From the NCBI GenBank assembly GCA_963678705.1, contig OY783222.1, positions 1 to 64,000 on the forward strand: a stretch of 64,000 nucleotides of DNA, read 5' to 3'. Both the position numbers and the translations under genes were made by a program. The notes beneath the pieces were generated by a model that was given only the letters and a program-made list of their open reading frames with translations, did not search any database and was not told the DNA's origin. Positions 12,001-57,413 of the stretch are shown one piece after another. Position 1 is the stretch's first letter; every line of letters starts with the position of its first letter. This DNA comes from Panorpa germanica. Its lineage: Eukaryota; Arthropoda; Insecta; Mecoptera; Panorpidae.

Positions 12001-14110
12001 TTTGAACATTCTCCATATAAAATTGACTGAGAATCAGAAAATATTTAAAAAAAAATCGCTGTTACTTGTGAAATCTTATAGCTACAAAAAAACAATGTAC
12101 TAGACATGTGCGAATACCGCCTCCTTACATAGATTTAGGCCTATAGTTCACATTGCTATTGAAGCGTATTCGAGTTATGAGCAAAAATCCAAAAAAAAAT
12201 TGAAGAAAATCCCATAACTTTTACAGTTTTTATCACATAAAGTTGAAATAGTGCTAAAACGACGAATTGAGAAAAAATAATGCGTTTTACGCTATTTTCA
12301 ACATTCTCCATATAAAATTGACTGAGAATCAGAAAATATTTTAAAAAAAATCGCAGTTACTTGTGAAATCTTATAGCTACAAAAAAACAATGTACTAGAC
12401 ATGTGCGAATACCGCCTCCTTACATAGATTTAGGCCTATAGTTCACATTGCTATTCAAGCGTATTCGAGTTATCAGCAAAAATCTAAAAAAAATTTGAAA
12501 AAAATGCCATAACTCTTACAGTTTTCATCACAGAAAGTTGAAATAGTGCTAAAACGACGAATTGAGAAAAAATAATGCTATTTTGAACATTCTCTATATA
12601 AAATTGACTGAGAATCAGAAAATATTTTAAAAAAACTCGCTGTTACTTGTGAAATCTTATAGCTACAAAAAAACAATGTACTAGACATGTGCGAATACCG
12701 CCTCCTTACATAGATTTAGGCCTATAGTTCACATTGCTATTGAAGCGTATTCGAGTTATGAGCAAAAATCCAAAAAAAATTTGATGAAAATCCCATAACT
12801 TTTACAGTTTTTATCACAGAAAGTTGAAATAGTGCTAAAACGACGAATTAAGAAAATATAATGCGATTTACGCTATTTTGAACATTCTCCATATAAAATT
12901 GACTGAGAATCAGAAAATATTTTTAAAAAAATCGCTGTTACTTGTGAAATCTTATAGCTACAAAAAAACAATGTACTAGACATGTGCGAATACCGCCTCC
13001 TTACATAGATTTAGGCCTATAGTTCACATTGCTATTGAAGCGTATTCGAGTTATGAGTAAAAATCCAAAAAAAATTTGATGAAAATCCCATAACTTTTAC
13101 AGTTTTTATCACAGAAAGTTGAAATAGTGCTAAAACGACGAATTGAGAAAAAATAATGCGATTTATGCTATTTTGAACATTCTCCATATAAAATTGACTG
13201 AGAATCAGAAAATATTTTTAAAAAAATCGCTGTTACTTCTGAAATCTTATAGCTACAAAAAAACAATGTACTAGACATGTGCGAATACCGCCTCAATACA
13301 TAGATTTAGGCCTATAGTTCACATTGCTATTGAAGCGTATTCGAGTTATGAGCAAAAATCCAAAAAAAATTTAAAGAAAATGCCATAACTCTTACAGTTT
13401 TTATCACAAAAAGTTGAAATAGTTCTAAAACGACGAATTGAGAAAAAATAATGCGTTTTACGCTATTTTGAACATTCTCCATATAAAATTGACTGAGAAT
13501 CAGAAAATATTTTTAAAAAAATCGCTGTTACTTGTGAAATCTTATAGCTACAAAAAAACAATGTACTAGACATGTGCGAATACCGCCTCCTTACATAGGT
13601 TTAGGCCTATAGTTCACATTGCTATTGAAGCGTATTCGAGTTATGAGCAAAAATCCAAAAAAAAATTGAAGAAAATCCCATAACTTTTACAGTTTTTATC
13701 ACATAAAGTTGAAATAGTGCTAAAACGACGAATTGAGAAAAAATAATGCGTTTTACGCTATTTTGAACATTCTCCATATAAAATTGACTGAGAATCAGAA
13801 AATATTTAAAAAAAAATCGCTGTTACTTGTGAAATCTTATAGCTACAAAAAAATAATGTACTAGACATGTGCGAATACCGCCTCCTTACAAAGATTTAGG
13901 CCTATAGTTCACATTGCTATTGAAGCGTATTCGAGTTATGAGCAAAAATCCAAAAAAAATTTGAAGAAAATCCCATAACTCTTACAGTTTTTATCACAGA
14001 AAGTTGAAATAGTGCTAAAACGACGAATTGAGAAAAAATAATGCGTTTTACGCTATTTTGAACATTCTCCATATAAAATTGACTGAGAATCAGAAAATAT
14101 TTAAAAAAAA
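1..14110. repeat. Satellite 1 array, ~295-bp units
   Basis: About 52 tandem head-to-tail units fill this stretch. The recurring marker 'gaataccgcc' falls at about 2, 297, 591, 887, 1181, 1477 and so on, a step of about 295 bp. Each unit is AT-rich with several A-tracts, plus a conserved block containing 'tttaggcctatag' (an AGGCCT site in nearly every unit). Variant units are a 112-bp short form, a form lacking about 8 bp near 'aataatgctattttg', and one of about 253 bp (2767-3020). The array runs off the left edge and ends at an A-run near 14110. Open frames of 60-70 codons recur here once per unit or per higher-order block and are chance products of the repeat. Pericentromeric or centromeric satellite is a plausible role, but nothing in the sequence proves it. 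Confidence 0.97.
1476..1588. repeat. Satellite 1 short unit (112 bp)
   Basis: This is one of six short units; the others begin near 5077, 5781, 8243, 9535 and 11702. The middle ~183 bp of the normal unit is missing. The join lies at 'cgagttacttgtg', where 'gagttatgagc' and 'ctgttacttgtg' of the full unit share GTTA. The short form is therefore best explained by a deletion between GTTA repeats that was later copied along the array. Confidence 0.85.
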
Positions 14111-14112
14111 AA

Positions 14113-20692: not shown

Positions 20693-22164
20693 CTAGCAAA
20701 CCCGGCGAACTCCGTTTCGCCATCAGATGGCTTCGCTATGTAACATTTCGTTTGGTGATTAAAAGATGAAGAAAAATTTTTTTTTTGTTTTATATTTGAA
20801 AAGGAAAAATTTTATTTCATTTCACAACAGTAATGAATTCATTTCGATTAGTGTTATTTAGTTGAACTTCTCTAAGTAAATGAAAGTGATTCCAAAGTAA
20901 ATACTGAATCGAAGCGTTATACGTGTCCGCAAATTATCCGTTTCATTAAAGTGCTCTTTGGTTAACCACATTTTTTGTTTTTTGGTCTGACGTTAACACA
21001 AACAAAGCGGATGGTTTCCCAACTCGTGAACACGCAACGTATAACTGCCCATGTGAAAAACAATGATTTTTTAAATTTATCCCGCAAACACTAAGCGATT
21101 GGCCTTGCGACTTGTTAATTGTCATTGCGAACGCAAGGCGAACTGGAAATTGCAATCGTTTGAAGTCAAACGGAAGATCAGTCGGAATCATTGGTATTCG
21201 AGGAATACATACATTTTCACCTGCGTACTTTCCGTTAATAATGGTTGCCTCAATCAAATTCGGCATAAGTCTTTTTATCGAAAGTCGAGTACCGTTGCAA
21301 AGTCGCGGTGGATTCAAATTACGCAATATCATAATAACTGTACCAAATTTGAGTTGCAAGTTATGTGGTGGAAATCCTGGTAACTCCAGAGAGTTCAAAA
21401 ACTCCGTTGGATAATTTACTACATCATCGGGATTTGTTATGGAATCAACGGATTTGTATGTCACCAAATCGCCAGCAATTTTTGATTGAATGGTGAAATT
21501 CAGTGCGTGTACATCATTATTCTTTGCGGCAAGAATTGCTCGTTGACTTAACCAAGGCTAATTCTGATAATTCTCACTAATGTTTGGGAAAACATTTTCA
21601 ATAAGAGCTAATTGAGAGTCTACAAATCGGCAAAAGTCGTTGGTAAGAGTAATTAATCCAGATGTCGCATCAACTGGGACTTTTCCATTTCCAACAGCTA
21701 ACAATTGTTTGGAAAATTGTGCAGCACTCTGATCATTTTAAAGTTAAACTCTCATATTAGTGGTTAGCGATATTGTTTTTACGTTATTCTATAAAGGTAA
21801 TGCCTTTAGGCAAGCATTCAATTCATCTGCAGTCGCCTGAAATCGCCTGCCAACAATATCATCATCACATGAAATTAACTGAGCAGAGAACAATGAGTAG
21901 CTGTCAAACAATGTATCACGCACCGGCGCTATCTACTTAAAATATTGGTTTGTATCTATGCTATGTATCAGAGATGGCGCTGTATGTGATAAAAGATTTT
22001 CCCGCTTTTCTGTTAAATTTTTTCCTAAATTCCTGAATTTTCTTTGCTATAAACCTCACGGAGCCCGAGACCTTTCCAACGAATGCAAAACCGTGAAAAT
22101 CGGTTCGTGCGTTCTGGAGTTATAACGTCAGGAAGGAAAACCCGACTTATTTTTATATAGTAGA
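20693..22164 (-). mobile_element. Helitron with Pif1-helicase remnant
   Basis: On the minus strand the element opens with 'TCTACTATATAAAAATAAG' at 22164, preceded by A. It ends in CTAG at 20693, followed by T. Eight bases upstream of CTAG there is a hairpin with a GGCGAA/TTCGCC stem (20704-20721). A-to-T insertion, 5' TC, 3' CTRR and a subterminal hairpin are the defining features of Helitrons, which move by rolling-circle replication. The copy is 1472 bp and holds only the last part of the Rep-helicase gene. It sits inside another Helitron (R3 copy D). It is internally deleted and non-autonomous. Confidence 0.85.
20946..21467 (-). pseudogene. Helitron RepHel helicase, C-terminal piece (Pif1-like)
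   Basis: The 173-codon frame carries the C-terminal end of a Pif1-family helicase. The run INKSQGQSL near residues 117-125 and HGQLYVACSRV near residues 139-149 are the late helicase motifs typical of Helitron RepHel proteins. Upstream on the same strand, decayed frames to about 21930 continue the homology: the sequence before the frame reads RAILAAKNNDVHALN, a stretch usually just ahead of this region. Stops at about 21545 and 21740 break that part. A full RepHel protein is well over 1,000 residues; here the Rep nuclease and the ATP-binding helicase motifs are absent. It cannot function alone. Confidence 0.85.
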
Positions 22165-22733: not shown

Positions 22734-25700
22734 GGTTATGGGTCCAGTTAAGTCCAGAGACGTTTTAGTGAGTGTTTTTCAAAAAGTAAACAGTGAATAA
22801 AGACTTTTAGTGGTGAACATAACCTTAAAAAAAAACGTGACTGTTGAAACTGTTTCTATTAAAAAAAAAAAAAAACTTCTTTGTGTTTAAAGTGTTCTCA
22901 ACGAATAAAATGGCATCGAACAATTCACTGGCATTTATCGAGAAGTTAACTGGCCGTGAAAACTATTCGACTATACAACACGAAGAACTATGGGATTGCA
23001 TTGAGGTTAACCCGGCGTCACCCGCAGATTCAAAACGTGATACAAAAGCGAAAACAAAGGTTCTGGTTGATCCGATCAATTACGTTCATATCCAAGAGGA
23101 AAACACGGCCAAAGGAGTTTGGGACAAATTGGCCGCAGCGTTCGACGACTCCGGACTTACACGCCGAGTTGGTCTGCTGCGTGATTTATGTAACACATCG
23201 CTCAGTGGATGTCAAAATATAGAAGAGTATGTGAGCAAAATTATGTCAACAGCTCACAAGCTGCGCAACATTGGCTTTAAAGTGGACGACGAGTGGCTCG
23301 GGACGTTGCTGCTCTCCGGTCTGCCCGAATCATATCAACCAATGATTATTGCGATCGAAAGCTCTGGCACAAAAATAACTGCAGACAGTGTTAAAGCAAA
23401 ACTATTGCAAGATGTTAGAAATTCAGACAACAACACAACGGCTTTTGCTGTCAACAAGAAGTTTCATAACAACTCTGTAAACAAGAAGTTCTCCAAGGGT
23501 CCGAGATGTTATTCCTGCAATCAATATGGACATAAACGCTCTGAATGCAACAAACACAAACCCAAGAACAAGACACAGAAACCTAGCTCTTCTTATGCCG
23601 CTGTGTTTGTTGCATCATCCCACTATGATGATGCTTGGTACATAGACTCCGGTGCTTCGGCACATATGACTAAGACCAAGAATATAATTGTAAAGGAAAC
23701 TACCCCTATAACAAAGAACATTCGAGTTGCTAATAACAAAGTGTTATCTGTGCAAAGCTCAGGAGATGTGAGCTTAAATATTTATTACCAAAACGGGCAA
23801 GAGAATAAGATTCTGTTCACAAATGTATTATATGTTCCTGAATTGGCAACTAATCTGATATCTGTAAGCCAAATTATTAAAAATGGAAGCCAAGTGAAAT
23901 TTGATACCTCAGGCTGTGTGATCATGAACAGCAAGAATCAAATAATAGCAACTGCGAGCATTGTAAATAACATGTACCGGCTGAACATGCCTGAAAGCCT
24001 TGCGCACATGTCCAGTGTTGAACATGAACAAGATGCTTCTTGCTGGCACCAGAGAATGGGACATCTTAATTTCCAAACTTTGAAAAAAATGTCTGATAAC
24101 ACCGAGCATTTAACTTTCTCAGAAAAAACAGAAAATCTGACATGCATAACCTGTAAAGAAGGAAAGCAGACACGGTTACCTTTTAAAAGTGATAGATTAA
24201 GAGTCACCAAACCCCTAGAACTGGTCCATTCTGACGTATGTGGGCCAATGGAAACCCAGTCTCTCGGTGGGAGCAGATATTTTTTAACCTTCCTTGATGA
24301 ATATTCCAAGAAGATTTCAGTATACTTTCTTCAGAACAAGTCTGAAGTGCTCAGTAAATTCAAAGAATTCAAGCAAGAAGTTGAAAATCAATTGGATGCT
24401 CGTATAAAGGTTCTTCGTACAGACAACGGACTTGAATACGATAACAAAGCCTTCTCTGAGTACCTGAAAGGTGCCGGAATCATCCATAAAACCACCACAC
24501 CATACATGCCTGAACAAAATGGGACTGCGGAACGCATGAATCGGACATTGGTTGAAAAAGCGAAGTGCATGCTACTCAACGCTGGTCTGCCGAAGTTGTA
24601 TTGGGCAGATGCAATACACACTGCTGCTTACATCATCAATTGTTCCCCAACCAGATCCTTGGTTTTCAAGACTCCTATGGAAATGTGGTCTGGACGCAAA
24701 CCAAATGTTGATCATATGCGTATATTTGGCTGCGAGGCAATGGTTCATCTGCCTAAAGAAAAACGCAGAAAATGGGACCCATAGGCTCACAGAATGATTT
24801 TCATCGGATACTGCGACCATACAAAAGGATACAGATTCACATTACCAAATTCTAGAAAGGTAATAAAGAGCAGAGATGCTACATTTCTTGAATCCTCAGT
24901 GAAGAGAGACTTTGTTTCGGTAGAATTGTCTGAGACAGACACTGAAAATGACAAAATAAATACAAAAAAGGAAGAGGTAAGAGAGAAAGCAAAAAAGGAA
25001 GAGGACAGCTTGATTGACAATGACACAAATTCAGAAAGTTCATATGAGACAGTGAAAGGAAACAGGTCAACGTCCGACAGTGAATACTTACCTGACACCA
25101 GTATTGATTCTCCTCCTGTCAGTAATGTGACATTGAGACCAAGAAATAAAACAAAAAAAAATTTCAACTCATCATGTACTGAAGAACATACTCATCTGAG
25201 TTTATTCTCATCCTGTGTTCCTGTAACATATGAAGAAGCAGTACATTCAACAAATAAAAATGAATGGATAAAGTCAATCAATGAAGAACTTGATGCTCAT
25301 AAGAAAAATGAAACCTGGACATTGATAGAAAAAACCTCCAAATGCCAAAGTGATCGGCAGTAAATGGGTGTTCCGAATAAAGGAAGAGTCAACGGGTCCA
25401 CAGTTCAAATCGAGACTTTGTGCTAAGGGATTTGCACAAACCGCAGGTATTGACTACACAGAAACCTTCCCTCCGACTGTAAGGTATGATTCAATACGTT
25501 TATTGCTTTCCATGGTTGTCCAAAATAAACTTAAAATCTTACAACTTGATGTAAAAACTGCATTTCTATATGGTGAACTTGAAGAGACCATATTTATGTC
25601 TCCGCCTGAAGGTCTATCCTGTGAAAACAACATGGTATGCAAGCTCAACAAGTCGCTGTATGGTTTAAAGCAAGCCCCCAGAAGCTGGAATAAGAAATTT

Positions 25701-26861
25701 GACTCAATATTAAAGAAATTTGGCTTCATCAACAGCAAAGCTGATCAATGTGTGTATGTTAGTCATGTCAATAATGAGAAATGTTATCTTTGTCTGTATG
25801 TGGATGATGGCCTACTATTTTCTAAAATTGAATCCACTCTGAAAGAAATAACTAAAGAACTACAATCTGTACTGGAAGTAAAGATATTAAACACACCAAG
25901 TAATTTTGTGGGCATGCAAATTGAGATATTTAGCAACGGTATTTTTATACATCAGACCAAGTATGTTGAACAACTGTTAGAGAAGTTTAACATGACTGAT
26001 GCTAACTCGAACACTGTTCCAGTGGACCCCCATGTCAAGCTACAAAAGGGAGATGGAGAACCAGAGAAAAACTATCCATACAGAGAAGCTGTGGGTTCTC
26101 TTATGCATCTGGCTACAGTTAGTCAACCAGAAATTATGTTTGCCGTGAGCCTGGTGAGTCGATTTTTAAGTTGCTATAACAAATCACACTGGAACGCTGT
26201 CATGAAGATCTTCAAGTACCTGAAGGATACTAAAGATTATGGCCTGTACTACTCATCAACATCAGAGCCACCAGCTGTTACTGGTTATAGCGATGCTGAT
26301 TATGCAAATGATATTGATACAAGACGCTCAGTTACTGGCTACGTCTTCATAAAGAATGGTGCTGCTGTGACATGGTCCAGCCAACGCCAACAGACGGTTG
26401 CTCTGTCAACAACAGAAGCTGAATTTATGGCAGCCTGTGCTGCAACAAAAGAGGCTATGTGGATAAAGCAAGTGTTATGTGATATTGGTAAATATAAACA
26501 AGACACTATGTGTTTACATTTGGACAATCAAAGTGCCATTAGTGTAATCAAGAATATAAATTTTCATAAAAGATGTAAACATATTGATATTAAGTATCAC
26601 TTCATAAAAGAAAAATATTTTCAAAAAAAATTATAGATCTTAAATCTGTAAGCACTGCTGATCAATATGCAGATATATTAACTAAAGCATTGTCAAAAGA
26701 TAAATTCCAATTCTTTAGATCTAAACTTGGTATGTTTAACTACAACTCTGTTTCCAAGTGATATGTCAGAATATCTTGTAGTGTAACCTGATTAATATTT
26801 TCATGTTTTTGATACTCAATTAATTATGATTTATTGTTAGAATGTCTAAATTTAGAGGGAG

Positions 26862-27031
26862 TGTTGAATTTAAATTTAGCGCCCTCTAGTAATTGACACT
26901 TCTACTTTTCTTTTCTAATTTTTACTAACTGTAATTCTGTACTCTGTGATATCCCAATGCAAGTGTACTTTTGGTTAATAAAATATACCTGATTAATATA
27001 AAATAATTGTTTATTTCTGCTAAATATAATA
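26862..27031 (+). repeat. 3' LTR of Copia copy 1
   Basis: It is near-identical to the 5' LTR, with about four differences over 170 bp. A purine-rich tract precedes it. Confidence 0.88.
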
Positions 27032-29290: not shown

Positions 29291-29649
29291 GTTCTATCAA
29301 TTCTTGTTCATGGGATATTTGCAAAGGATTTTTTTTGGAATTTTCCAGTTTTTCCTAAAATACTTCTTCCAGGGAAATTCAGGAAAAATATATATAATAT
29401 AATATATAGTTACTTACATACGATTTAAACATAAAAAAACATGGTTTTTTCGATAATATTTAACTTAATGTATAATATCGCCATCTATATTTCGTGAATC
29501 AAAATATTACACTCCTTAATCTCTAAATTTAAGCTTTGCAAAACAATAATTTAAAAAATAATTAAAAACACTATAGCACATGAAAATAATCTATAAGAAA
29601 CAAATAATTTTATAAGACACTAAGTACACTAGTTTTAAAAATGACAATT
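29291..29649. other. AT-rich interval downstream of the SKP1-like gene
   Basis: This should hold the 3' untranslated region of the minus-strand SKP1-like gene. No clear polyadenylation signal could be chosen with confidence. A phrase near 29345-29390 ('ggaattttccagtttttcc') faintly resembles the reverse of Helitron R3. Nothing else is seen. Confidence 0.4.
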
Positions 29650-30306
29650 TCATTTTTTGGCATCAGAAGGGCCTTCTTCGACATCTACATCGCATTGTTT
29701 TCTTTTTTGTTCATATGTCGTACAAAATGTTAAATTTGTTTTTATTTCCTCAGCAGATTTATTGCATATAAGAGGTGCCATAACCTGCGCAATTATCCGC
29801 CGTAATTCGATAACGCCAATCTGATTAGCATATTCTACTATATCAAGGGTTTCTTCATTCACAGGCTCGAAGAAGTGTCTATCCCAGTCTGTAATCTCAA
29901 CGTCCTTCAAATTTTCCTTATGGTGGTCTAGCCAGTTAATTATCTATTAAAAATTGATTTAAATAAATCCTAACTACTGTTACAATCAGTTCCTACTTCG
30001 CTAGTTCCTGCTTCCTACTTCAATTCCGTGGAATGGAGTCACTTAGTTCCATGATTGACAATGAAATTAAGTCACCAATTAATAAAGAAATTATAAAAAT
30101 CTATTTATATTATATAAAGTATATGAAGTAAATACCTTTTTTAGGGTGTAGGAGGGGACATCAATTTTTATATCAAGCTCTTCTTCTGGCTCCAGCGTTT
30201 GTAACATAATTTGAATGTAGTCCGAAGTAGAAAAGCACCTTTCATCGACTACGAAGACAATCTCATCACTAGATGTTAATTTGATACATCTCGGTTTCGG
30301 TTCGGT
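29650..30306 (-). CDS. Divergent SKP1-like protein (SCF ubiquitin ligase adaptor family)
   Basis: Two exons join cleanly. The first exon visible runs 30306-30136 (57 codons, phase 0) and ends AAG/GTATTT; the second runs 29943-29650 (97 codons plus TGA) after an intron ending TTTTAATAG. Exon 1 reads IKLTSSDEIVFVVDERCF, matching the start of the SKP1 BTB/POZ fold; exon 2 reads IINWLDHHK, then DWDRHFFEPVNEETL, then LRRIIAQVMAPLICNKSAEEI, matching the SKP1 dimerisation domain that binds F-box proteins. Known SKP1 proteins are about 160 residues, so this is nearly full length. The start codon is not visible: the sequence before exon 1 ends TTTGCAG, a good splice acceptor, so a short 5' exon is probably missing. 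The end reads CDVDVEEGPSDAKK instead of the usual tryptophan-rich tail. SKP1 links cullin to F-box proteins; whether this diverged copy does so is unknown. It could be a paralogue or a young pseudogene, though both exons are open. Confidence 0.78.
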
Positions 30307-30371
30307 CTGCAAATAAATAATTTCAAGTAAGTTGTTTTCAACATTTTAACAAAATGACTTATAAACTCTTG

Positions 30372-30372
<1 letters not shown>

Positions 30373-30442
<70 letters not shown>
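30373..30442. repeat. (TA)n microsatellite, about 35 repeats
   Basis: Uninterrupted TA repeat ending directly at the mariner terminus 'cgaggcgtg'. It marks the outer left edge of the palindromic rearrangement. Confidence 0.97.
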
Positions 30443-30443
<1 letters not shown>

Positions 30444-30646
30444 GAGGCGTGTTTTTTAAGTAAGTACCGTTTTGAAATTAAAAAAAGACGTGCAAAGATA
30501 TCGCAATAATTTTATTTTTACATGAAAGCCTGTACCTTAATCTACTTTTCTACATAATTTCCGTGAATATTGAGGCACTTGTCATAACGTGGCACCAGTT
30601 TTTGAATACCCTCCTCATAAAATTCTGCCGCCTGACTTGTTAACCA
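30443..30646 (-). mobile_element. Mariner 3' end fragment (204 bp)
   Basis: This segment matches 34434-34637, the terminal part of the minus-strand mariner, over its whole length as far as I can read. It includes the terminal inverted repeat and the last ~110 bases of the transposase frame. It stops at 'gttaacca' and passes directly into the outer end of the palindrome's left arm. It has only one terminus, so it is not a separate insertion but the product of a break and switch. Confidence 0.88.
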
Positions 30647-31926
30647 TAAGTTCATATTCGTTCAAATATACATTTATATGTCAACTAGCGCTTCTCCCTG
30701 TTGCAAGGCGACGTGCATATAATATTTGTGATTAAATTTAAATTGGACTGTAATTTGGTCTTATTTTTAAGTAATGTTGGCTAATATAAGTGTTTCTTAA
30801 AATCTATTTTCACCTATTTTACCCTGAACTTACCATTTACTGCCAATGAAGCTCTGTATTGAACAATACCCGACGCCACAACTCTTGCGCCATAGCCACT
30901 TAGCACCCCAACCCCTTATCAATCCTGTTACCGCACTTACAATTCAATTCAATTCCCCTACCCAGCATATTCATATGACATTGAACACGGTCAAATTTAT
31001 TCACCTTTTATACCTGAGTGACTATACAAACCGCCGGTCGATCTAACGAATCGTATAAGAGAGTAAATTAACAAAATATAGGGATTTATAAAATACTATC
31101 AGCTTTTGGGTTATGTGAAATATTTATAACTTATTAATAACTATTATAAATGCTCAATGAATAGAAGCATCTCGGAATCTGTTCATGATACTGCCTGGAG
31201 CTGCCATCGGTGCAGATCTTGGTGATAGTAGCAAACTACTATTCCTTATTCCGATATTAAGTCCAGCGTTTGTCTTAACGCAAAACAATGTTTGTTTAAT
31301 ATATTTGATTTATATATATATGTGGAAAACGAGAGTACAATCCCAATTCTGATGTGGAAAATAAGAACTATCCAACTTCTTATGTGGAAAACAATAACCA
31401 ATCGCACTTCTCTGATGTGGAATCAAGGTACCCTTATTTAATTTAGGGCAAATGTCAATTCAATTAATATTCAACTATGCAATATCTTAGTTACTTGTCA
31501 GGATGATAAAGAATCACATAATTTGTTTAATACATTTATTTAATAAAATAATAACGATGATAATAATAATGATAATAATACAATAAGGTTACAATATAAA
31601 CGTTGGTATTTACTTTACAAATACAGAACAATAAATGCTCAAACCATCTTAAGTTCTAGTTAATATATACTCAGTCCTACATTAGTTTTCAGCTTGACTT
31701 AATAGGTTTATTTTTAATACTTTTAAGAATACGTTTAGTTAATTTCGGTAAGCACATTCCCTTACGTATTCAGTCAGTGGTTTAAAGTTTCACACATTTT
31801 AATTGCTTTAACCTTACACTTGGTTTCCGTTCAAACTATACCCTCATTAATCACATTCTTTACGACTTTCCTAGACCGGGTGTTATAGTTATGATTACTT
31901 TGTATGCTCGATTTATTTTTACAACC

Positions 31927-31928
<2 letters not shown>
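30647..31928 (+). repeat. Outer part of left palindrome arm
   Basis: Non-coding, AT-rich. It holds an old repeat phrase shared with 27075 (30846-31000), and a ~40-bp phrase shared with 22310 ('caccgatggcggctc', here near 31190-31230). There is also a short run of about four 'tgtggaaaa' units 31-38 bp apart (31319-31430) and an 'ataataatgataataata' stretch near 31560. The mirrored copy is at 36908-38190. No gene is seen. Confidence 0.7.

Positions 31929-32022
<94 letters not shown>
31929..32022. repeat. (TA)n microsatellite, left arm
   Basis: About 46 TA repeats directly abutting the truncated 5' end of an R1-type LINE. Its mirror at 36821-36907 is 6 bp shorter. Confidence 0.97.
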
Positions 32023-32025
<3 letters not shown>

Positions 32026-32946
32026 CTCGCTCCTGAAAAAACGGAGGCAATCGTACTTTATGGTGGAAGAAAACTGAAGGAAATACCCTTGGAGGTAGGC
32101 ACAATGAAAATTAAATCCAAAGAACACTTAAAGTACCTGGGGCTCTATATTGGAAGGAATGCAGACATGAAGCAACATGTTATACAAGCGGCCAAGAAAT
32201 CCGAAGAAAAACTTATGACGTTAAGTAGACTAATGCCAAATCTGAAGGGACCGAAGGCAAGTAAGAGAAGAGTGTTAGCGTCGGTGGTTCACTCAATAAT
32301 GCTGTATGCTGCACCGATATGGGAAGAAGCTGTAAAACTCAAAAAATATAGAAATATGTTATTGAGTGTGCAACGTAGAATGGCAATACGTGTGAGTAGT
32401 GCTTATCGCACAATCTCGGCAGAAGCTGTCCAGGTGATAAGCGGAATAGTACCTCTGGCACTACTGGTGGAAGAGCGGAAAAGGGTCTATATGGAAAAAG
32501 AAGAAAAACACCAGGAAGTAAGGAAAGAAGTTTTAAAAAAGTGGCAATGCGAGTGGGAGAAAGAGACCGGTAAAGCGGTGTGGATTAAAAGGCTAATACG
32601 GAAGATCAGTACTTGGAAAAATCGAAAATACGGGGAAATTGATTATTTTATAACACAATTTCTCGGAGGACATGGATGCTTTGGGAGTTACTTGAAGAGA
32701 TTCAAAAAGAGAGAGTCCGACAAATGTTGGTACTGTGAACATGTCGATACACCAGAACATACGTTCTTCTATTGTGGCCGATGGACGATGGAAAGGGAAG
32801 AAGTACGGACGATAACGGGAACCACACTGACCGTAGATAATATTGTTAATATTATGGTGGAGAAGGAAGAGTATTGGAGTGCGGTTCGAGTCTTCGTCAC
32901 GAAAATTCTCAAAACCAAGGAAGTGGACGTCAACACAACATCGTAA
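32023..32946 (+). pseudogene. R1-type LINE ORF2, C-terminal portion
   Basis: The frame, about 308 codons after the TA tract, reads LAPEKTEAIVLYGG and then LKYLGLYIG, the region just after the catalytic core of R1-clade reverse transcriptases. Further on, RRVLASVVHSIMLYAAPIW is the typical thumb-region block. Near the end, CWYCEHVDTPEHTFFYC gives the C-terminal CCHC zinc knuckle of this clade. The frame is open to its stop at 32944-32946, but the endonuclease and the catalytic FADD motif are absent. The TA tract also translates as a Tyr-Ile run, which is not part of the protein. Identical in the other arm. Confidence 0.85.
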
Positions 32947-33070
32947 CCGGAACTCGGGTATCAAGATCCAGTCTGAAGGAATGCAATTGCGGTACCAGAA
33001 CGTCCCGACGGGCTGTCAGGCGACAGTCTTATAGAAGATTTCTCCTCCTCACCACAAAAAAAAAAAAAAA
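32023..33070 (+). mobile_element. R1-type LINE, 5'-truncated copy, left arm
   Basis: Starts abruptly at the (TA)n tract and ends in 15 A residues (33056-33070) followed by more TA. It contains only the end of the reverse-transcriptase ORF and a ~110-bp 3' untranslated region. A truncated 5' end and an A tail are what target-primed reverse transcription leaves. TA on both sides means that it landed in a TA microsatellite. Confidence 0.82.
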
Positions 33071-33078
33071 TATATATA

Positions 33079-34409
33079 CGAGGCATGTTTTTTAAGTAAG
33101 TACCGTTCTGCGTTTCCGCCTTTGCAGCGCTACGGTCGGCGTTCCGCGCATGCGCGCTGGTTACCTACATCTCTTTTCTACGCACTGACGCCATTACAGT
33201 CTGATTCTTCATTGTATACGTTGTTTACTGAGTGTTTAAGATGCTTCCGACAATCGTCAGTCCCGCCGATTGTGAAGTACGGGCTGTTATACGATTTCTT
33301 AGTGCTAAAGGCGTAAACCGATCGATATTCATCGTGAGATCTGTGAAGTTTACGGACAAAACATTATGAGTGATGAAATGGTAAGGAAATGGGTGAGAGC
33401 ATTTAAATATGGCCGCACAAATGTGCATGATGAAGAACGGAGTGGGCGTCCTTCGGTCTTTAATGAAGATTTTGTGCAGAAAGTGGAAGAAAAGGTGAGA
33501 GAAAACAGACGCTTTACAATTTCATCAATGTGCGACTGGTTTCCTCAATATTCTCGTAGGGTTTTGTATCGCATTGTGACCGAGAACTTGAATTACCGGA
33601 AATTGTGTTCACGTTGGGTTCCAAAAATGTTGACGGATTTACACAAAACCCAACGTTTAGGCAGTGCATTGACTTTCCTTGAGCGGTACCACAATGAAGG
33701 TGAAGATTTTTTAGACCAAATTGTTACTGGTGACGAAACATGGGTGGCCTACGTCACACCAGAATCAAAACAACAATCCATGGAATGGCGACATTCATCA
33801 TCACCCAAAAGAGTGAAGTTTAAGCAAACAATCTCTGCCCGGAAAATCATGTGCACAGTTTTTTGGGACAAAAAAGGAGTATTGCTAGTGGAGTTTCTGC
33901 CTCGTAATGAGACAATCAATGCAGCGTCTTATTGTGAGACATTGAACAATCTGCGTCGTGCAATCCAGAACAAAAGACGTGGCAAGTTGAGTAAGGGTAT
34001 CGTTTTGCTGCATGACAATGCCCGTCCACATGTGGCTAATCGGACCAAAGATCTCATCAAATCTTTTAAATGGAAAACTCTAGATCATCCTCCATACAGC
34101 CCTGATCTGGTGCCCAGCGACTACCATTTGTTCCTGCACTTGAAGAAACACCTGGGTGGTCAGCGTCTTCAAGACGATAACGAAGTCAAAACAGTTGTGA
34201 TACAGTGGTTAACAAGTCAGGCGGCAGAATTTTATGAGGAGGGTATTCAAAAACTGGTGCCACGTTATGACAAGTGCCTCAATATTCACGGAAATTATGT
34301 AGAAAAGTAGATTAAGGTACAGGCTTTCATGTAAAAATAAAATTATTGCGATATCTTTGCACGTCTTTTTTTAATTTCAAAACGGTACTTACTTAAAAAA
34401 CACGCCTCG
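33079..34409 (+). mobile_element. Full-length mariner transposon, left arm
   Basis: 1331 bp between TA dinucleotides. Inverted ends of about 30 bp read 'cgaggcatgttttttaagta' on the left and, reversed, 'cgaggcgtgttttttaagta' on the right. TA duplication is the mariner signature, although here the TA-rich surroundings make it uninformative alone. It holds one transposase gene with a single frame break, so the copy is complete in structure but probably inactive. Confidence 0.93.
33241..34310 (+). pseudogene. Mariner transposase (one 5' frameshift), left arm
   Basis: Mariner transposases cut and paste their own element. The N-terminal part starts at ATG 33241 (MLPTIVSPADCEVRAVIRFL). The rest is open from about 33315 in another frame (KPIDIHREICEVYGQNIMSDEM...), ending at 34310. 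One missing base near 33314 separates the two, in a family where this region is normally continuous; total length would be near 355 residues. The catalytic DD34D set is visible: TGDETWV, HDNARPH and YSPDLVPSDY; WVPKML precedes them in its usual place. The ORF from Met 33366 lacks the first part of the DNA-binding helix-turn-helix domain. Active-site residues look intact, so the frameshift and the N-terminal loss are the visible defects. Confidence 0.9.
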
Positions 34410-34433
34410 TATATATATATATATATATATATA
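34410..34433. repeat. (TA)12 at the palindrome centre
   Basis: Twelve TA repeats lie exactly between the two mariner ends. A TA tract is its own reverse complement, so the true point of fold-back could be anywhere in it. Confidence 0.95.
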
Positions 34434-35764
34434 CGAGGCGTGTTTTTTAAGTAAGTACCGTTTTGAAATTAAAAAAAGACGTGCAAAGATATCGCAATAA
34501 TTTTATTTTTACATGAAAGCCTGTACCTTAATCTACTTTTCTACATAATTTCCGTGAATATTGAGGCACTTGTCATAACGTGGCACCAGTTTTTGAATAC
34601 CCTCCTCATAAAATTCTGCCGCCTGACTTGTTAACCACTGTATCACAACTGTTTTGACTTCGTTATCGTCTTGAAGACGCTGACCACCCAGGTGTTTCTT
34701 CAAGTGCAGGAACAAATGGTAGTCGCTGGGCACCAGATCAGGGCTGTATGGAGGATGATCTAGAGTTTTCCATTTAAAAGATTTGATGAGATCTTTGGTC
34801 CGATTAGCCACATGTGGACGGGCATTGTCATGCAGCAAAACGATACCCTTACTCAACTTGCCACGTCTTTTGTTCTGGATTGCACGACGCAGATTGTTCA
34901 ATGTCTCACAATAAGACGCTGCATTGATTGTCTCATTACGAGGCAGAAACTCCACTAGCAATACTCCTTTTTTGTCCCAAAAAACTGTGCACATGATTTT
35001 CCGGGCAGAGATTGTTTGCTTAAACTTCACTCTTTTGGGTGATGATGAATGTCGCCATTCCATGGATTGTTGTTTTGATTCTGGTGTGACGTAGGCCACC
35101 CATGTTTCGTCACCAGTAACAATTTGGTCTAAAAAATCTTCACCTTCATTGTGGTACCGCTCAAGGAAAGTCAATGCACTGCCTAAACGTTGGGTTTTGT
35201 GTAAATCCGTCAACATTTTTGGAACCCAACGTGAACACAATTTCCGGTAATTCAAGTTCTCGGTCACAATGCGATACAAAACCCTACGAGAATATTGAGG
35301 AAACCAGTCGCACATTGATGAAATTGTAAAGCGTCTGTTTTCTCTCACCTTTTCTTCCACTTTCTGCACAAAATCTTCATTAAAGACCGAAGGACGCCCA
35401 CTCCGTTCTTCATCATGCACATTTGTGCGGCCATATTTAAATGCTCTCACCCATTTCCTTACCATTTCATCACTCATAATGTTTTGTCCGTAAACTTCAC
35501 AGATCTCACGATGAATATCGATCGGTTTACGCCTTTAGCACTAAGAAATCGTATAACAGCCCGTACTTCACAATCGGCGGGACTGACGATTGTCGGAAGC
35601 ATCTTAAACACTCAGTAAACAACGTATACAATGAAGAATCAGACTGTAATGGCGTCAGTGCGTAGAAAAGAGATGTAGGTAACCAGCGCGCATGCGCGGA
35701 ACGCCGACCGTAGCGCTGCAAAGGCGGAAACGCAGAACGGTACTTACTTAAAAAACATGCCTCG
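34434..35764 (-). mobile_element. Full-length mariner transposon, right arm
   Basis: Mirror image of 33079-34409, with the same 1331-bp length, the same ends and the same transposase frame break. It is a product of the arm duplication, not of an independent transposition. Confidence 0.93.
34533..35602 (-). pseudogene. Mariner transposase (same frameshift), right arm
   Basis: Mirror copy of 33241-34310. The 314-codon open frame (35477-34533) is identical in translation to the left-arm copy, and the N-terminal piece is again split off by the same one-base loss (about 35529). TGDETWV, HDNARPH and YSPDLVPSDY are present. Sharing the same defect shows that the two copies arose by duplicating one already broken element. 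Confidence 0.9.
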
Positions 35765-35772
35765 TATATATA

Positions 35773-36817
35773 TTTTTTTTTTTTTTTGTGGTGAGGAGGA
35801 GAAATCTTCTATAAGACTGTCGCCTGACAGCCCGTCGGGACGTTCTGGTACCGCAATTGCATTCCTTCAGACTGGATCTTGATACCCGAGTTCCGGTTAC
35901 GATGTTGTGTTGACGTCCACTTCCTTGGTTTTGAGAATTTTCGTGACGAAGACTCGAACCGCACTCCAATACTCTTCCTTCTCCACCATAATATTAACAA
36001 TATTATCTACGGTCAGTGTGGTTCCCGTTATCGTCCGTACTTCTTCCCTTTCCATCGTCCATCGGCCACAATAGAAGAACGTATGTTCTGGTGTATCGAC
36101 ATGTTCACAGTACCAACATTTGTCGGACTCTCTCTTTTTGAATCTCTTCAAGTAACTCCCAAAGCATCCATGTCCTCCGAGAAATTGTGTTATAAAATAA
36201 TCAATTTCCCCGTATTTTCGATTTTTCCAAGTACTGATCTTCCGTATTAGCCTTTTAATCCACACCGCTTTACCGGTCTCTTTCTCCCACTCGCATTGCC
36301 ACTTTTTTAAAACTTCTTTCCTTACTTCCTGGTGTTTTTCTTCTTTTTCCATATAGACCCTTTTCCGCTCTTCCACCAGTAGTGCCAGAGGTACTATTCC
36401 GCTTATCACCTGGACAGCTTCTGCCGAGATTGTGCGATAAGCACTACTCACACGTATTGCCATTCTACGTTGCACACTCAATAACATATTTCTATATTTT
36501 TTGAGTTTTACAGCTTCTTCCCATATCGGTGCAGCATACAGCATTATTGAGTGAACCACCGACGCTAACACTCTTCTCTTACTTGCCTTCGGTCCCTTCA
36601 GATTTGGCATTAGTCTACTTAACGTCATAAGTTTTTCTTCGGATTTCTTGGCCGCTTGTATAACATGTTGCTTCATGTCTGCATTCCTTCCAATATAGAG
36701 CCCCAGGTACTTTAAGTGTTCTTTGGATTTAATTTTCATTGTGCCTACCTCCAAGGGTATTTCCTTCAGTTTTCTTCCACCATAAAGTACGATTGCCTCC
36801 GTTTTTTCAGGAGCGAG

Positions 36818-36820
<3 letters not shown>
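35773..36820 (-). mobile_element. R1-type LINE, 5'-truncated copy, right arm
   Basis: Mirror of 32023-33070: the A tail lies at 35773-35787 (as T on the plus strand), the C-terminal reverse-transcriptase frame at 36820-35897, and the truncated end abuts the TA tract at 36821. The translation is the same as in the left arm. Confidence 0.82.

Positions 36821-36907
<87 letters not shown>
36821..36907. repeat. (TA)n microsatellite, right arm
   Basis: Mirror of 31929-32022, shorter by 6 bp; this is the only arm difference found. Confidence 0.95.
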
Positions 36908-36910
<3 letters not shown>

Positions 36911-38192
36911 GGTTGTAAAAATAAATCGAGCATACAAAGTAATCATAACTATAACACCCGGTCTAGGAAAGTCGTAAAGAATGTGATTAATGAGGGTATA
37001 GTTTGAACGGAAACCAAGTGTAAGGTTAAAGCAATTAAAATGTGTGAAACTTTAAACCACTGACTGAATACGTAAGGGAATGTGCTTACCGAAATTAACT
37101 AAACGTATTCTTAAAAGTATTAAAAATAAACCTATTAAGTCAAGCTGAAAACTAATGTAGGACTGAGTATATATTAACTAGAACTTAAGATGGTTTGAGC
37201 ATTTATTGTTCTGTATTTGTAAAGTAAATACCAACGTTTATATTGTAACCTTATTGTATTATTATCATTATTATTATCATCGTTATTATTTTATTAAATA
37301 AATGTATTAAACAAATTATGTGATTCTTTATCATCCTGACAAGTAACTAAGATATTGCATAGTTGAATATTAATTGAATTGACATTTGCCCTAAATTAAA
37401 TAAGGGTACCTTGATTCCACATCAGAGAAGTGCGATTGGTTATTGTTTTCCACATAAGAAGTTGGATAGTTCTTATTTTCCACATCAGAATTGGGATTGT
37501 ACTCTCGTTTTCCACATATATATATAAATCAAATATATTAAACAAACATTGTTTTGCGTTAAGACAAACGCTGGACTTAATATCGGAATAAGGAATAGTA
37601 GTTTGCTACTATCACCAAGATCTGCACCGATGGCAGCTCCAGGCAGTATCATGAACAGATTCCGAGATGCTTCTATTCATTGAGCATTTATAATAGTTAT
37701 TAATAAGTTATAAATATTTCACATAACCCAAAAGCTGATAGTATTTTATAAATCCCTATATTTTGTTAATTTACTCTCTTATACGATTCGTTAGATCGAC
37801 CGGCGGTTTGTATAGTCACTCAGGTATAAAAGGTGAATAAATTTGACCGTGTTCAATGTCATATGAATATGCTGGGTAGGGGAATTGAATTGAATTGTAA
37901 GTGCGGTAACAGGATTGATAAGGGGTTGGGGTGCTAAGTGGCTATGGCGCAAGAGTTGTGGCGTCGGGTATTGTTCAATACAGAGCTTCATTGGCAGTAA
38001 ATGGTAAGTTCAGGGTAAAATAGGTGAAAATAGATTTTAAGAAACACTTATATTAGCCAACATTACTTAAAAATAAGACCAAATTACAGTCCAATTTAAA
38101 TTTAATCACAAATATTATATGCACGTCGCCTTGCAACAGGGAGAAGCGCTAGTTGACATATAAATGTATATTTGAACGAATATGAACTTATG
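36908..38192 (-). repeat. Outer part of right palindrome arm
   Basis: Mirror image of the outer left arm. It contains the same short 'ttttccaca' repeats (37410-37520), the shared ~40-bp phrase near 37615-37655, and the old repeat phrase at about 37860-37985. Non-coding. The arm match ends at 38192 and single-copy-looking sequence follows. Confidence 0.8.
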
Positions 38193-51014: not shown

Positions 51015-53910
51015 TTACATTTTTAACCCACGTTTATTCACAAGCACTTTCATCATTTCATCGCATAGTTTTTGCAATATGTTTGCCTTATTTGATAATG
51101 ATGGTAAGTAGTAATGTGCTACTTGGCAACATTTAGTAAAAATATGTACAAAAACAGGATTTGGATTTATTAAACATTTAGGCCCATATGCTTTCTCCTG
51201 AATTAGGATTGGCCGCGATAAGTTTGCTGATATCAAATTACCGCGACATTCGCAACATTTAATTTTTTTTAATAGTACCTTCGCTAAATATCCCGCTATG
51301 TAAGCATTAATTTGCTCAGTAATTTTATTTGGCGGAGCAAATGTGTGGATAGTTGGATGCAGTTCCAATTTGTCATCTACCATTTGTTGCTTCACGGCTA
51401 TTTCGTCACCATCTTCTATGAATTCTCTTAAATTATTTAAGACAAAACATGTATCCTTCTCGCAATTTGCTCCAGGAGAATGCGGAGACATAAAATTATT
51501 TACTATCAAACTTTTATACGATGCCTTAAATGCTCTGCAATTTGGATTAATATTTCTTGCACCATGGCTACGTATGCAGCCAAAAAAGTTTTCCAGGGGA
51601 TCTTGATTAAAATTCCTTAAAATAAGGTACTTAAAACCAATTGGCTGTAGTTGTTTCCAGATGTATCTGAAACAAATAAATTATATTTAATAACATTCAA
51701 AATGTTAATGCTGCGAAGAGCCATGTATTTAATATTGTTATACACACCTTAATCCTTGAATTGTTGTAATAAAATTTTTCACTGACGGTGGAGCATAATT
51801 TTTTCCTTTATATTTTAAAGTTCTTAACACTGGCAGTGCTTCGTTGTTCCAAAACTCTAAATGCTTGGAATTAGCAGTAATAGCGCACCTCAACATGTTT
51901 TTCTTTTGGGATTCAATTGCTGCCCCATTCACGCTATCAAATAATTTATTGATAAACAATAAAAAATCTGCAGTATCATTAAAACTTTTGGGACAATTAT
52001 TTGCATCTGAAAAATAACAATTTATTCATAAATTTATTCCTCCATAAATGTTATTGTAGGTTTAATACAGTTTTTGACACTTACTTAAGCGTACTAATGT
52101 TCTCATACATGCAGATACACTTCGTGAAAAAACTTGCGCTGCTCTATTTACTTTCATTTTCTTAATTTTTCCTTTGATAACATGGGATTCTGTCAATTTG
52201 TTGCACATTTTCTGTTCGTAATCTCCGACATCTAAATTATAAAATGTTACTACATCATTCCAGCTGGCAATTCTGTTGATGTCGCCGTTAAGTTTAAATT
52301 CGACGTCGGTTTCAAGCAGCATATTTCTAATGCCTTTTAGCAAGTGAGGTGGATCATACAGATGTATAATCTCCAACTCACTTGTTATATAGCCTAAGCT
52401 TCTATTTTCTATGCCTTTGCGCCCGCAATTTATTGTAGTCTCTTCTTTTAACATTTTGATAGCTTTGGTGTTTATGGAAAATTGGTCAGAAACTGTAGCT
52501 ACCACAGTAAGGCCACATTCCTTTAAGTTTGAAACGATCAATTTTATGTTTCTTACTAAATGCGGTGCACCCATACCAGCATTCGTGAAGAAATAAGCAA
52601 TTGGTTGCTTCCATTTCTTCCTAATTCCCCTTGCCATAAACACCATCGCATGGTCCGCAAAAATGGGTTTTCCAAACTCATCTCCATTATTTTCAAATCC
52701 ATCAATTTTATCGCTTCTGGGATCATATGTAATTGATGCATCTAGAGACATTTCATCAAACATTAATATGCAATATCTGTTTAGTTCAGGCATTCTCTCC
52801 ACAGATTTCTTTAACGATTCCGTTATTACTGTATTAATTCCACATTCAAATGGAATTTTGTTTAATAACGTAGTTAATGTTTTTCTACATGGAAGTGCAA
52901 ACATCTGCCTCAGAAATCTGTAAGCTTTAGGACCTTGTTTTAACAAAGATAATGCAAATATCTTGTCATTCATGGTGTATCTCCTACCATTATTATTTCT
53001 TTTTTGCATTTTCAACTGCGAGATTAAAAATTCGTAGGTGGTGTTATTCAAATTTTTATTTAAATAGCTATGCGTATTAGCATATCTCATACACTTTTTT
53101 AATCGTAGTTTTGCACAATTTTTTAATATTTCCTGCTTCCTTGCGTATTTCTTTAAATCTTTTGCAATACTATAGAAGTGCCTTGCTTTTGGATTGAGAT
53201 CTGCTGACCTCGTCACATTTGCAGATTTCAGTAAAGGACGTTTTTCTTTAATACTTTTACCTGGAAATTAATTTTATAACTATTATCAGTAGCAATGTAT
53301 CAAGAATAATTTAAATTATAGTTAAATATATTATTTGTAAATTTAATATTTACCTATTTCAAACTGAACCTGAGTTTTTTCAATATTAATAATTTCTTTT
53401 GATTTAATCCCAGTTTCCACGCTCTCTTTTTTCTCAATCTCAACACTTAAAACTTCATTATTACTAGTGCTTTCTAAAATTGGCCGAGAAGTAAAAGGCA
53501 AAATAGAATTTTCGATGGTGGGTGCTTCATGAAAATCTAAAAAATAATCATATTGTTAATACTCTTTCACGTTCTATAAATAAAGTGTGTCGTTGCGAGT
53601 ATTACTCACTCAAAGCAGCAAGTCCTGTTATTATTTTCAGGAAATCTGCAATGGTCACTAAAATGAATGGTACATAATCGTCTAAGTGCATATACCCTTT
53701 CCTTATCCATTTCAAAAAGACTTTGAATGTTCAGGCGTTTTAACCATGCTTCATATACCTGTAAATACATACAATCAAATAAATTGTAGTGCACAATATT
53801 AGATAAAATTATTAATAAAAGTTACTTACATCATTATCAATTGGAAATCTGTGAAAAGCATATGCTTTATTAGACGACTTGCAATTTGGTACACAGCACT
53901 TTAAAACCAT
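51015..53910 (-). CDS. THAP-domain transposase, P-element/THAP9 type
   Basis: Six exons can be laid out on the minus strand: 53910-53830, 53758-53610, 53536-53353, 53260-52085, 52006-51748 and 51666-51015, all with GT...AG introns. Exons 1-2 form the zinc-binding THAP DNA-binding domain: MVLKCCVPNCKSSNKAYAFHRF, then CTIHF completing the C2CH set. Exon 3 is a linker. Exon 4 holds the RNase-H-like catalytic region: LMFDEMSLDASI has the first acidic residue, later VVATVSDQFSIN and LYDPPHLLKGIRN, all typical of P/THAP9 proteins. Exon 6 has NFNQDPLENFFGCIRSHG, a hallmark of the C-terminal part. Joins 1-2, 3-4, 4-5 and 5-6 keep frame. Join 2-3 does not: the phases differ by one, so there is an indel or an unrecognised splice site there. 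Predicted size is about 830 residues, normal for the family. It cuts and pastes its own element; it may be inactive because of exon 2/3. Confidence 0.85.
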
Positions 53911-55671: not shown

Positions 55672-57413
55672 ATATCGCTTTTTGTTTTCGAGATATTAGC
55701 GTTTCAAAAGTTAAATAATAGAAATTTTCTAAAATGGTTGCTAGATTTAAAATCAGCAAGAAAAAGTACGTCCAAAAACATATTTAAAAGTTGAATAAAA
55801 AAAATTTATTTTTTGAATAAAACAGGAAATTTACAAGGGGCTAACCTTTAAAATTTTATAAAAGTTATTGGTCCTGACTGAAGAATTTATTACTGTTCTT
55901 AACTTAAAATGTTATGCTGATGCTATATATAAAATTTATTTTTAATATCGCTTTCTGTTTTCGAGCTATTAGCGTTTCAAGGGTTACATAATAGAAATAT
56001 TCAAAAATAGTTTTTAGATTCAAAATCAGCAAGAAAAAGTACGTCCAAAAGCGTATTTAAAAGTTAAAATTTTTTTTTTATATATTTTGAATAAAACAGG
56101 AATTTTACAAGGGGATAACCTTTAAAATTTTATAAAAGCTATTAGTCCTGATTAAAGAATTTATTACTCTTCTTAACGTAAAATGTTATGCTGATCCTAT
56201 ACATGCAATTAATTTTTTATTATCGCTTTCTGTTTTCGAGCTATTAGCGTTTCAAGGGTTACATAATAGAAATATTCTAAAATGGTTTCTAAATTTAAAA
56301 TCAGCAAGAAAAAGTACGTCCAAAAGCATATTTAAAAGTTAAAAAAATTTTTTTTATATTTTTTGAATAAAACAGGAATTTTGCAAGGGGTTAACCTTTA
56401 AAATTTTATAAAAGTTATTGGTCCTGATTTAAAAATGTATTACTGTTCTTATCGTAAAATGTTATGCTGATGCTATATATGAAATTTATTTTTTATTATC
56501 ACTGCGTTTTCGAGCTATTAGCGTTTCAAGGGTTACACAATAGAAATATTCTAAAATGGTTTCTATATTTAAAATCAGCAGGAAAAAGTACGTTTAAACA
56601 AATATATATAAGTTAAAAAAACAACATTTTATTTTTTGAATAAACCAGGAATTTTACAAGGAGTTAACCTTTAAAATTTTATAAAAGTTATTGGTCCTGA
56701 TTGAAAAATTTATTACTGTTCTTATCTTAAAATGTTATGCTGATGCTATATATGAAATTTATTTTTTATTATCACTGTGTTTTCGAGCTATTAGCGTTTC
56801 AAGGGTTACATAATAAAAGAAATATTCTAAAATGGTTTCTAGATTTAAAATCAGCAAGAAAAAGGAAGTCCAAAAGCATATTTAAAAGTTAAAAAATTTT
56901 TTTTTATATTTTTTGAATAAAACAGGAAAGTTGCAAGGAATTAACCTTTAAAATTTTATAAAAGTTATTGGTCCTGATTGAAGAATTTATTACTCTTCTT
57001 AACGTAAAATGTTATGGTGATCCTATATATGCAAATTATTTTTTAATATCGTTTTCTGTCTTCGAGCTATTAGCGTTTCAAGGATTACATAATAGAAATA
57101 TACTAAAATAGTTTCTAGATATAAAATCAGCAAGAAAAAGTACGTCCAAACACATATTTATAAGTTAAAAAAAAAACCTTTTATTTTTTGAATAAACCAG
57201 GAATTTTACAAGGGGTTAAGCTTTAAAATTTTATAAAAGTTATTGGTCCTGATTGAAGAATTTATTACTCTTCTTAACGTAAAATGTTATGCTGATCCTA
57301 TACATGCATCTTTTTTTTATTATCGCTTTTTGTTTTCGAGATATTAGCGTTTCAAGGGTTACATAATAGAAATATTCTAAAATTGTTTCATGATTTAAAA
57401 TCAGCAAGAAAAA
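55672..57413 (+). repeat. Satellite 2 array, ~274-bp units (left block)
   Basis: 'ttattggtcctgatt' or a close variant recurs at about 55867, 56140, 56417, 56687, 56967 and 57241, a step of about 275 bp. Each unit holds 'cgagctattagcgtttcaag', 'aaatcagcaagaaaaagtac' and a T-rich block before 'tgaataaaacaggaa'. Units differ by several percent. The block is cut at 57413 by the second Copia copy. No genuine gene; the open frame at 57240-57440 is a satellite reading. Confidence 0.96.

Follow-up and report, generated by a model that had tools for sequence, protein, structure and literature searches.

How does a palindrome with kilobase-long arms come to lie intact beside a host gene in an insect genome, and is it a genuine feature of the chromosome? 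The palindrome considered here is in the first 64,000 nucleotides of contig OY783222.1 of Panorpa germanica (the window, i.e., the whole stretch of DNA analysed), which form the start of a 13.76-Mb contig. Positions 30645-38192 constitute an inverted repeat with 99.84% identity over 7,554 aligned columns, no mismatches and two gap openings, which is far beyond chance.

Arms, centre and contents of the palindrome

An earlier note on this DNA had described reverse-complement arms of about 3.77 kb with a 6-bp difference in a TA tract, a description that our alignment confirms (Table 1). Pairing is exact over the outer 1,372 bp and over the innermost 2,486 bp of each arm, with the two stretches overlapping in the TA tract; the length of this tract is the sole difference, and with the outer TA tracts excluded the arms match at 3,684 of 3,684 bp. 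As the (TA)12 at the centre is self-complementary, the palindrome has no unique spacer: TA and zero unique bases lie between the mariner ends, and the inverted second copy directly adjoins the original. A search of 464 Mb of genome found the exact tail-to-tail join of the two mariners a single time. Among 20 stretches of 10 kb sampled from this genome, none contained an inverted repeat of at least 500 bp at 95% identity or higher; weaker ones of at least 200 bp were present in two (L033, with eight alignments at 76-91%, four of them at least 500 bp; and L039, at 85%). TA tracts of at least 20 bp make up 0.15% of 200 kb sampled (six tracts) compared with 4.1% of the ancestral interval. About 30 kb of sequence separates the palindrome from the contig start, and satellites lie nearby.

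Table 1. Positions of features at the palindrome and in its left flank
Feature	Positions	Strand	Basis or remark
SKP1-like gene, last exon, ending at stop codon	29650..29943	-	GT-AG intron, translation
SKP1-like gene, upstream exon	30136..30306	-	starts at splice acceptor, without start codon
(TA)35 tract flush with third mariner copy	30373..30442		putative ancestral TA tract on left flank
Third mariner 3' end copy, 204 bp, broken off inside element	30443..30646	-	sequence identity with arm copies
Outer junction	30645..30646		CA common to both parents
Left palindrome arm	30645..34421	+	probable inverted extra copy
MITE-like high-copy repeat in left outer arm, mirrored in right arm	31299..31922		TA-rich edges, short inverted ends
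TA tract, left arm	31930..32022		93 bp
LINE-like 3' part, 5'-truncated; mirror at 35767-36820	32023..33076	+	repeat copies in genome
Mariner element, 1331 bp, then TA	33079..34409	+	Transposase_1 7.2e-22; Mos1/SETMAR chains; family present in genome
(TA)12 at palindrome centre, 24 bp	34410..34433		self-complementary; short inverted sequence at turn
Right palindrome arm	34422..38192	-	probable ancestral orientation
Mirror mariner element	34434..35764	-	arm identity; family present in genome
TA tract, right arm	36821..36907		87 bp

The mariner boundaries in Table 1, with the TA of the centre tract following the element proper, slightly correct those of the note. A DDE transposase, inverted ends of ~30 bp and a TA target are all present; upstream of the open frame the element also lacks a single base, a deletion private to it, and the transposase frame is apparently broken. 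Relatives of the transposase were found neither in viral_contigs nor in phages, nine stretches of genome_contigs fitted a pattern with none confirmed, and plasmids gave two weak matches (24% and 44% identity), making the prokaryotic and viral comparison uninformative. The LINE-like part, presumably a LINE from its structure and poly-A tail, has at least 38 other genome copies (40 of 355 candidates scored) and a 307-aa frame without a Pfam match. The MITE-like label is our own, from the TA-rich edges and short inverted ends; this repeat gave 2,298 first-look candidates, of which 40 were scored, and TA runs adjoin most of the six copies examined. No further match to the outer arm's first 0.65 kb appeared among the 46 listed (40 of 2,298 candidates scored).

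The left flank (29500-30372), with which the palindrome is continuous, has one full genome match and two short ones at 77-89%, and the right flank (38193 to ~39230) had no other match among the 46 listed (40 of 3,958 candidates scored). On the left lies an SKP1-like gene, the spliced product of which (154 aa) matches Skp1_POZ (6.8e-8) and SKP1 chains in the PDB (best 2.8e-10); a paralogue at C19:546556-547282 has an identical exon layout. Because the upstream exon begins at a splice acceptor and lacks a start codon, the first exon should sit to the right, across the palindrome. The palindrome is located just upstream of the gene and probably within its first intron.

The third mariner copy, the outer junction and age

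At its left edge the palindrome meets a further 204-bp copy of the minus-strand mariner end, as the note had reported. Positions 30443-30646 equal 34434-34637 and the reverse of 34206-34409, with 0 of 204 differences. This third copy carries the one locus-specific variant within its span, and a perfect score for the 204 bp was reached by only three matches, all in the window, among the 41 listed (40 of 948 candidates scored); for these two reasons we assign it to the present locus. The left junction reads gttaacCAtaagttc, in which the bases CA are, as the note had held, compatible with both parents. As a signature of template switching, however, this overlap is not supported: in simulation, a random junction in the region shares at least 2 bp in 18% of trials, so the CA does not count as evidence. 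Microhomology is 2 bp at the outer junction, and the centre has TA. No target duplication was seen at 30645/38192, and the return point is 204 bp from the same TA tract as the palindrome centre.

The palindrome appears to be recent, as previously proposed, because the arms show no divergence (95% upper bound 0.08%) although the nearest LINE sibling among those scored (40 of 355 candidates) differs at ~3 of 977 bp, a figure inferred from bit scores. Zero divergence could also be explained by gene conversion between the arms or by consensus polishing. PMC10766186, in the part cited, presents long palindromes as seldom found in natural genomes and as unstable wherever they are introduced, and instability of short-spacer palindromes is treated in the cited portion of PMC8053094, from which a spacer-free palindrome would be expected to be unstable. 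This counts against the explanation preferred below, under which its survival requires recency or tolerance.

A proposed fold-back in a TA tract and rival explanations

We think it probable, given the arrangement of the copies, that the locus is a real and recent inverted duplication arising by fold-back in a TA tract, with ~3.77 kb copied and rejoining 204 bp inside the mariner. The ancestral order given in the note is supported: left flank, (TA)n, mariner on the minus strand, LINE, outer arm, right flank. In our version, the LINE fragment would have been followed, before the right flank, by another (TA)n, the MITE-like repeat and unique sequence. Synthesis or a resected end arriving from the right would have stalled or broken in the (TA)n adjoining the mariner. 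The self-complementary TA strand may then have turned back and, acting as its own primer, been extended through the mariner, LINE and outer arm as far as 38192. At a point 204 bp into the mariner, the new end would have been attached almost bluntly (overlap of 2 bp, CA) to the sequence on the left. The attachment may have been a template switch, returning to the stalled fork or sister, or an end-joining event at a staggered break; it would have restored continuity with the left flank and left the third 204-bp copy. This scheme is favoured by the arms, the centre in TA, the junctions, the identical third copy and flanks for which the matches listed included no second full copy. According to the cited parts of PMC3907307, PMC7467729 and PMC10622511, folding back at short inverted sequences is an established mechanism. 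The human and yeast products described there (PMC3907307, PMC7467729) are either terminal or have been stabilised by further rearrangement, telomere capture being one example, and the interstitial position of the present palindrome, by that analogy, counts against a fold-back reading. A mariner excision scar was rejected as the direct cause: both central mariner ends are complete with TA between them, and the turn therefore lay in flanking TA rather than at a transposase cut.

The direction of synthesis is not readable from the sequence. In the scheme of the earlier note, a fork moving from left to right would have left its template 204 bp into the mariner, jumped 3.6 kb forward to the opposite strand, copied back to the TA tract and rejoined there (MMBIR/FoSTeS). 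Exactly the same sequence is predicted and the junctions fit, but the first jump would have only 2 bp of overlap, within chance, and would land ahead of the fork, while the TA tract, a likely stall and fold site, would have no role in the first step. What stands of that proposal is the ancestral order, the inverted duplication centred in TA and its recency; the polarity is doubtful, and in our estimation quite unlikely, because an initial 3.6-kb forward jump is less simple than a TA-tract fold-back returning 204 bp short. It is also possible, although unlikely, that origin-dependent inverted-repeat amplification (ODIRA) first produced an inverted triplication, palindromic at both of its junctions, and that a deletion then struck the left junction. 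This deletion would have removed sequence beyond 38192 and all of the left copy except the (TA)n and a 204-bp piece of the mariner. The 204-bp remnant and the near-blunt CA join would then be an ordinary end-joined deletion, and secondary rearrangement of palindromic junctions is what this model predicts (PMC10766186, in the part cited); a triplication followed by one-sided deletion, a decayed ODIRA form, is a possible source of an identical sequence. Against it are the need for two events and a lost intermediate, and the finding that the window contains the LINE part and the outer arm only twice each.

An assembly or library artefact, in which fold-back or chimeric molecules arose, for example, from TA-tract hairpin ends during library preparation or whole-genome amplification, would account for the perfect arms, the TA tract at the fold and the location 30 kb from the contig end beside satellites. 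Fold-back reads are put at 0.55-0.6% of ONT genomic reads in the cited part of PMC12870357, where PacBio HiFi and Mas-Seq are virtually free of them and Iso-Seq has 0.03%; the bearing of these rates on the present assembly would depend on its platform. However, comparable palindromes were found in none of the 20 sampled stretches, the arms differ in TA length, and a 204-bp return leads asymmetrically into a unique left flank, which was found once. Two junctions, one of them asymmetric, would require two chimeras to coincide, so that an artefact is a poorer explanation here than it would be for a simple fold-back read, and we rate its probability as low. Finally, it is most improbable that the 204 bp derive from an old mariner fragment of separate origin, beside which a fold-back transposon inserted. 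Mariner pieces are indeed common (the 204 bp drew 948 first-look candidates), but an independent fragment was rejected on the shared private variant, with perfect scores otherwise confined to the two arms (40 of 948 candidates scored), and a fold-back transposon on the missing target duplication and on the outer 0.65 kb, unmatched among the matches listed (40 of 2,298 scored).

Known systems and a possible role in silencing

The fold-back inverted duplications of humans (PMC3907307) and yeast (PMC7467729, PMC10622511) resemble the preferred TA-tract fold-back, in the passages cited, in having a short self-complementary turning point and then a second junction, whereas the present locus is kilobase-sized rather than a large segment, is interstitial and retains both flanks; its far end showed neither a terminal deletion nor telomere capture, the sequence being continuous with the left flank. 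The human cases have a single-copy spacer, unlike the spacer-free turn here, and yeast short-loop hairpins (PMC7467729) need no long spacer. ODIRA triplications, as presented in PMC10766186, share a palindromic junction at a short inverted sequence, and their decayed forms are predicted to have an altered junction on the other side, as here. In place of an inverted triplication with two short-inverted-repeat junctions, however, the present locus has two copies and a 204-bp remnant. A literature search for insect or mariner palindromes gave, among the papers listed, none recognisable as this locus, which is not a claim that it is unpublished.

A long inverted repeat of a transposon, as in silencers of the Mu killer or hpRNA type, is present. 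In maize, Mu killer (a partial, inverted duplication of mudrA) likewise doubles a transposon in inverted form, transposase gene and transposon end included, near a host gene that could read through, according to the part of PMC3440606 cited; the present case differs in being a mariner in an animal host, with a whole element in each arm. The hpRNA loci of Drosophila in PMC10317233 are similarly recently arisen hairpin loci in an insect genome, but those described there are siRNA sources that suppress selfish genes, with siRNAs measured. By extension, the palindrome might be transcribed from the SKP1-like first intron as a ~3.7-kb hairpin and be a newborn silencing locus, whose small RNAs would target a large mariner family, a young LINE and the MITE-like repeat together; we regard this as very doubtful. 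If true, it would represent an animal equivalent of Mu killer seen at its very origin, both junctions of that event still being readable. The unmutated junctions tie the TA microsatellite beside the mariner to the birth event, and the fold-back, template-switch and triplication models could therefore be distinguishable in relatives and in individuals of one species. If transcribed, the palindrome may show the origin of transposon-silencing hairpins.

Anatomy of the palindrome

The genome searched comprises 464 Mb in 249 contigs; one of these, C19 (13.76 Mb), opens with the 64 kb of the window, whose introns and transposons point to an insect source. The near-perfect palindrome with arms of about 3.77 kb described in the earlier note is confirmed: its arms are identical at 3684/3684 positions when the outer TA tracts (93 versus 87 bp) are set aside, with pairing unbroken over the outermost 1372 bp of each arm and over 2486 bp to either side of the middle. 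Since the arms meet at a self-complementary (TA)12, they have no unique base between them. At the left edge, a third copy of the mariner's last 204 bp, flush with (TA)35, meets the arm end at CA. The earlier note read this overlap as a template-switch signature, but at least 2 bp were shared in 18% of random junctions drawn from the palindrome region, and hence CA is uninformative, arguing neither for nor against microhomology. An exact tail-to-tail mariner junction with a 2- to 32-bp spacer occurs once in the genome.

Features of the palindrome and other repeats in the window
Feature	Position	Strand	Observations
295-bp satellite array	1-14111		reaches contig start; repeatedly interrupted by 113- and 408-bp register shifts
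Pif1-type helicase fragment	20946-21467		domain match; possible Helitron origin
Repeat pair, taken to be Ty1/copia-like from their frames	22820-27031 and 57592-61835		97.3% identity over 4254 aligned columns; second lies between 274-bp satellite blocks 55673-57413 and 61836-64000
SKP1-like gene	29650-30306	minus	divergent family; 12 matching genome stretches, 9 on C19 and 3 on contig C20
Mariner 3' end (third copy)	30443-30646	minus	belongs to a large family; first-look candidates: 948 (204 bp), 816 (whole element)
Inverted repeat	30645-38192		arms of 3777 and 3771 bp
Mariner		minus (ancestral order)	1331 bp; Transposase_1 domain, 7.2e-22
LINE copy	32023-33076		~68 bp absent between query positions 977 and 978, present in 38 other scored copies
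P-element-like transposase	52062-53216	minus	TNP-like RNase H and Tnp_P_element domains

With the right arm taken as the reference orientation, the locus is inferred to have run, before duplication, from the left flank through a TA tract, minus-strand mariner, short TA run and poly-T, LINE-like 3' part, long TA tract, MITE-like repeat and a 0.65-kb stretch to the right flank. The mariner also matches the Mos1 and SETMAR structures; a private one-base deletion lies upstream of its open frame, which starts some 40 residues past the beginning of the Mos1 alignment, and the gene looks broken, equally in both arms. Many short derivatives may belong to the family. Of the best 40 (of 355) candidates scored for the LINE-like part, 38 are other copies; the closest differs at roughly 3 of 977 bp, judging by its bit score. 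The MITE-like repeat gave 2298 first-look candidates (best 40 scored), and the 0.65-kb stretch had no other match among those listed (best 40 of 2298 candidates). The palindrome is an unusually clean example of an already known kind of structure.

Origin of the third mariner copy and age

Six full-length mariner relatives were fetched from 118 matches listed (best 40 of 816 candidates scored); loci L007 and L008, which have common flanks, were counted as one insertion among them. Against these, the palindrome mariner is set apart by 14 private positions, the same in either arm. One of them is located in the 204-bp stretch and also occurs in the third copy, which differs from the palindrome mariner at 0/204 positions and from the relatives at 2-4. 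Searching with the 204 bp listed 41 matches (best 40 of 948 candidates), of which three, all in the window, had a perfect score; scores of the other 38 fit one mismatch, with identity rounding to 100% for all. It is most likely from these comparisons, as the earlier note proposed, that the left flank once adjoined a full mariner at this locus. The weak point of this argument is that a single variant carries it.

The arm divergence of 0/3684 has a 95% upper bound of 0.08%, whereas a duplication dating back to the divergence of the nearest scored LINE sibling (~0.3%) should show about 11 differences. This supports the suggested recent origin, subject to the cautions that gene conversion between arms would erase differences and that consensus polishing would do likewise.

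Mechanism and alternatives

TA tracts of at least 20 bp make up 0.15% of a sampled 200 kb; the fold falls within such a tract, and the second junction lies within 204 bp of it in the ancestral order. The most economical history would begin with a stall or break within this tract beside the mariner, whereupon the self-complementary TA strand may have folded back and primed itself, 3.77 kb would have been copied and a nearly blunt return made to the left side. The earlier note, whose observation stands and whose interpretation is supported in part, had the switch run with the reverse polarity, jumping first at mariner position 204; we think this order very unlikely, but it yields the identical sequence, which thus does not decide polarity. 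An inverted triplication followed by one-sided deletion (PMC10766186) gives that sequence too and seems improbable.

An assembly or library artefact is likewise unlikely, as it requires two joins, the fold at the TA tract and an asymmetric second join back to the left flank. For the left flank (29500-30372), the search gave a single full match plus two that were short and diverged (3/3 candidates scored), and for the right flank (38193 to ~39230) no other match among 46 listed (best 40 of 3958 candidates). As neither search gave a second full copy among the matches listed, they revealed no unrearranged haplotype in the assembly. Inverted repeats of at least 500 bp at 95% identity occurred in 0/20 sampled 10-kb genome stretches, and weaker ones in 2/20. 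Returning to fold-back at the TA tract, PMC8053094 cites MUS81 attack on AT-rich microsatellites upon WRN depletion and reports yeast breakage to be strongest at inverted repeats with spacers below 9 bp; these observations fit the palindrome's birth and also explain why its survival is puzzling.

The neighbouring SKP1-like gene

Directly left of the palindrome lies an SKP1-like coding region of two exons (154 aa), open throughout, with a paralogue of identical layout and 53-55% identity at C19:546556-547282. Because the region opens at a splice acceptor and lacks a start codon, a first exon should lie to the right, although it was not found. The palindrome would then occupy the gene's first intron. 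If so, the primary transcript would carry a hairpin of transposon sequence, a lead that recalls Mu killer of maize, where a hairpin of this kind has been proposed.
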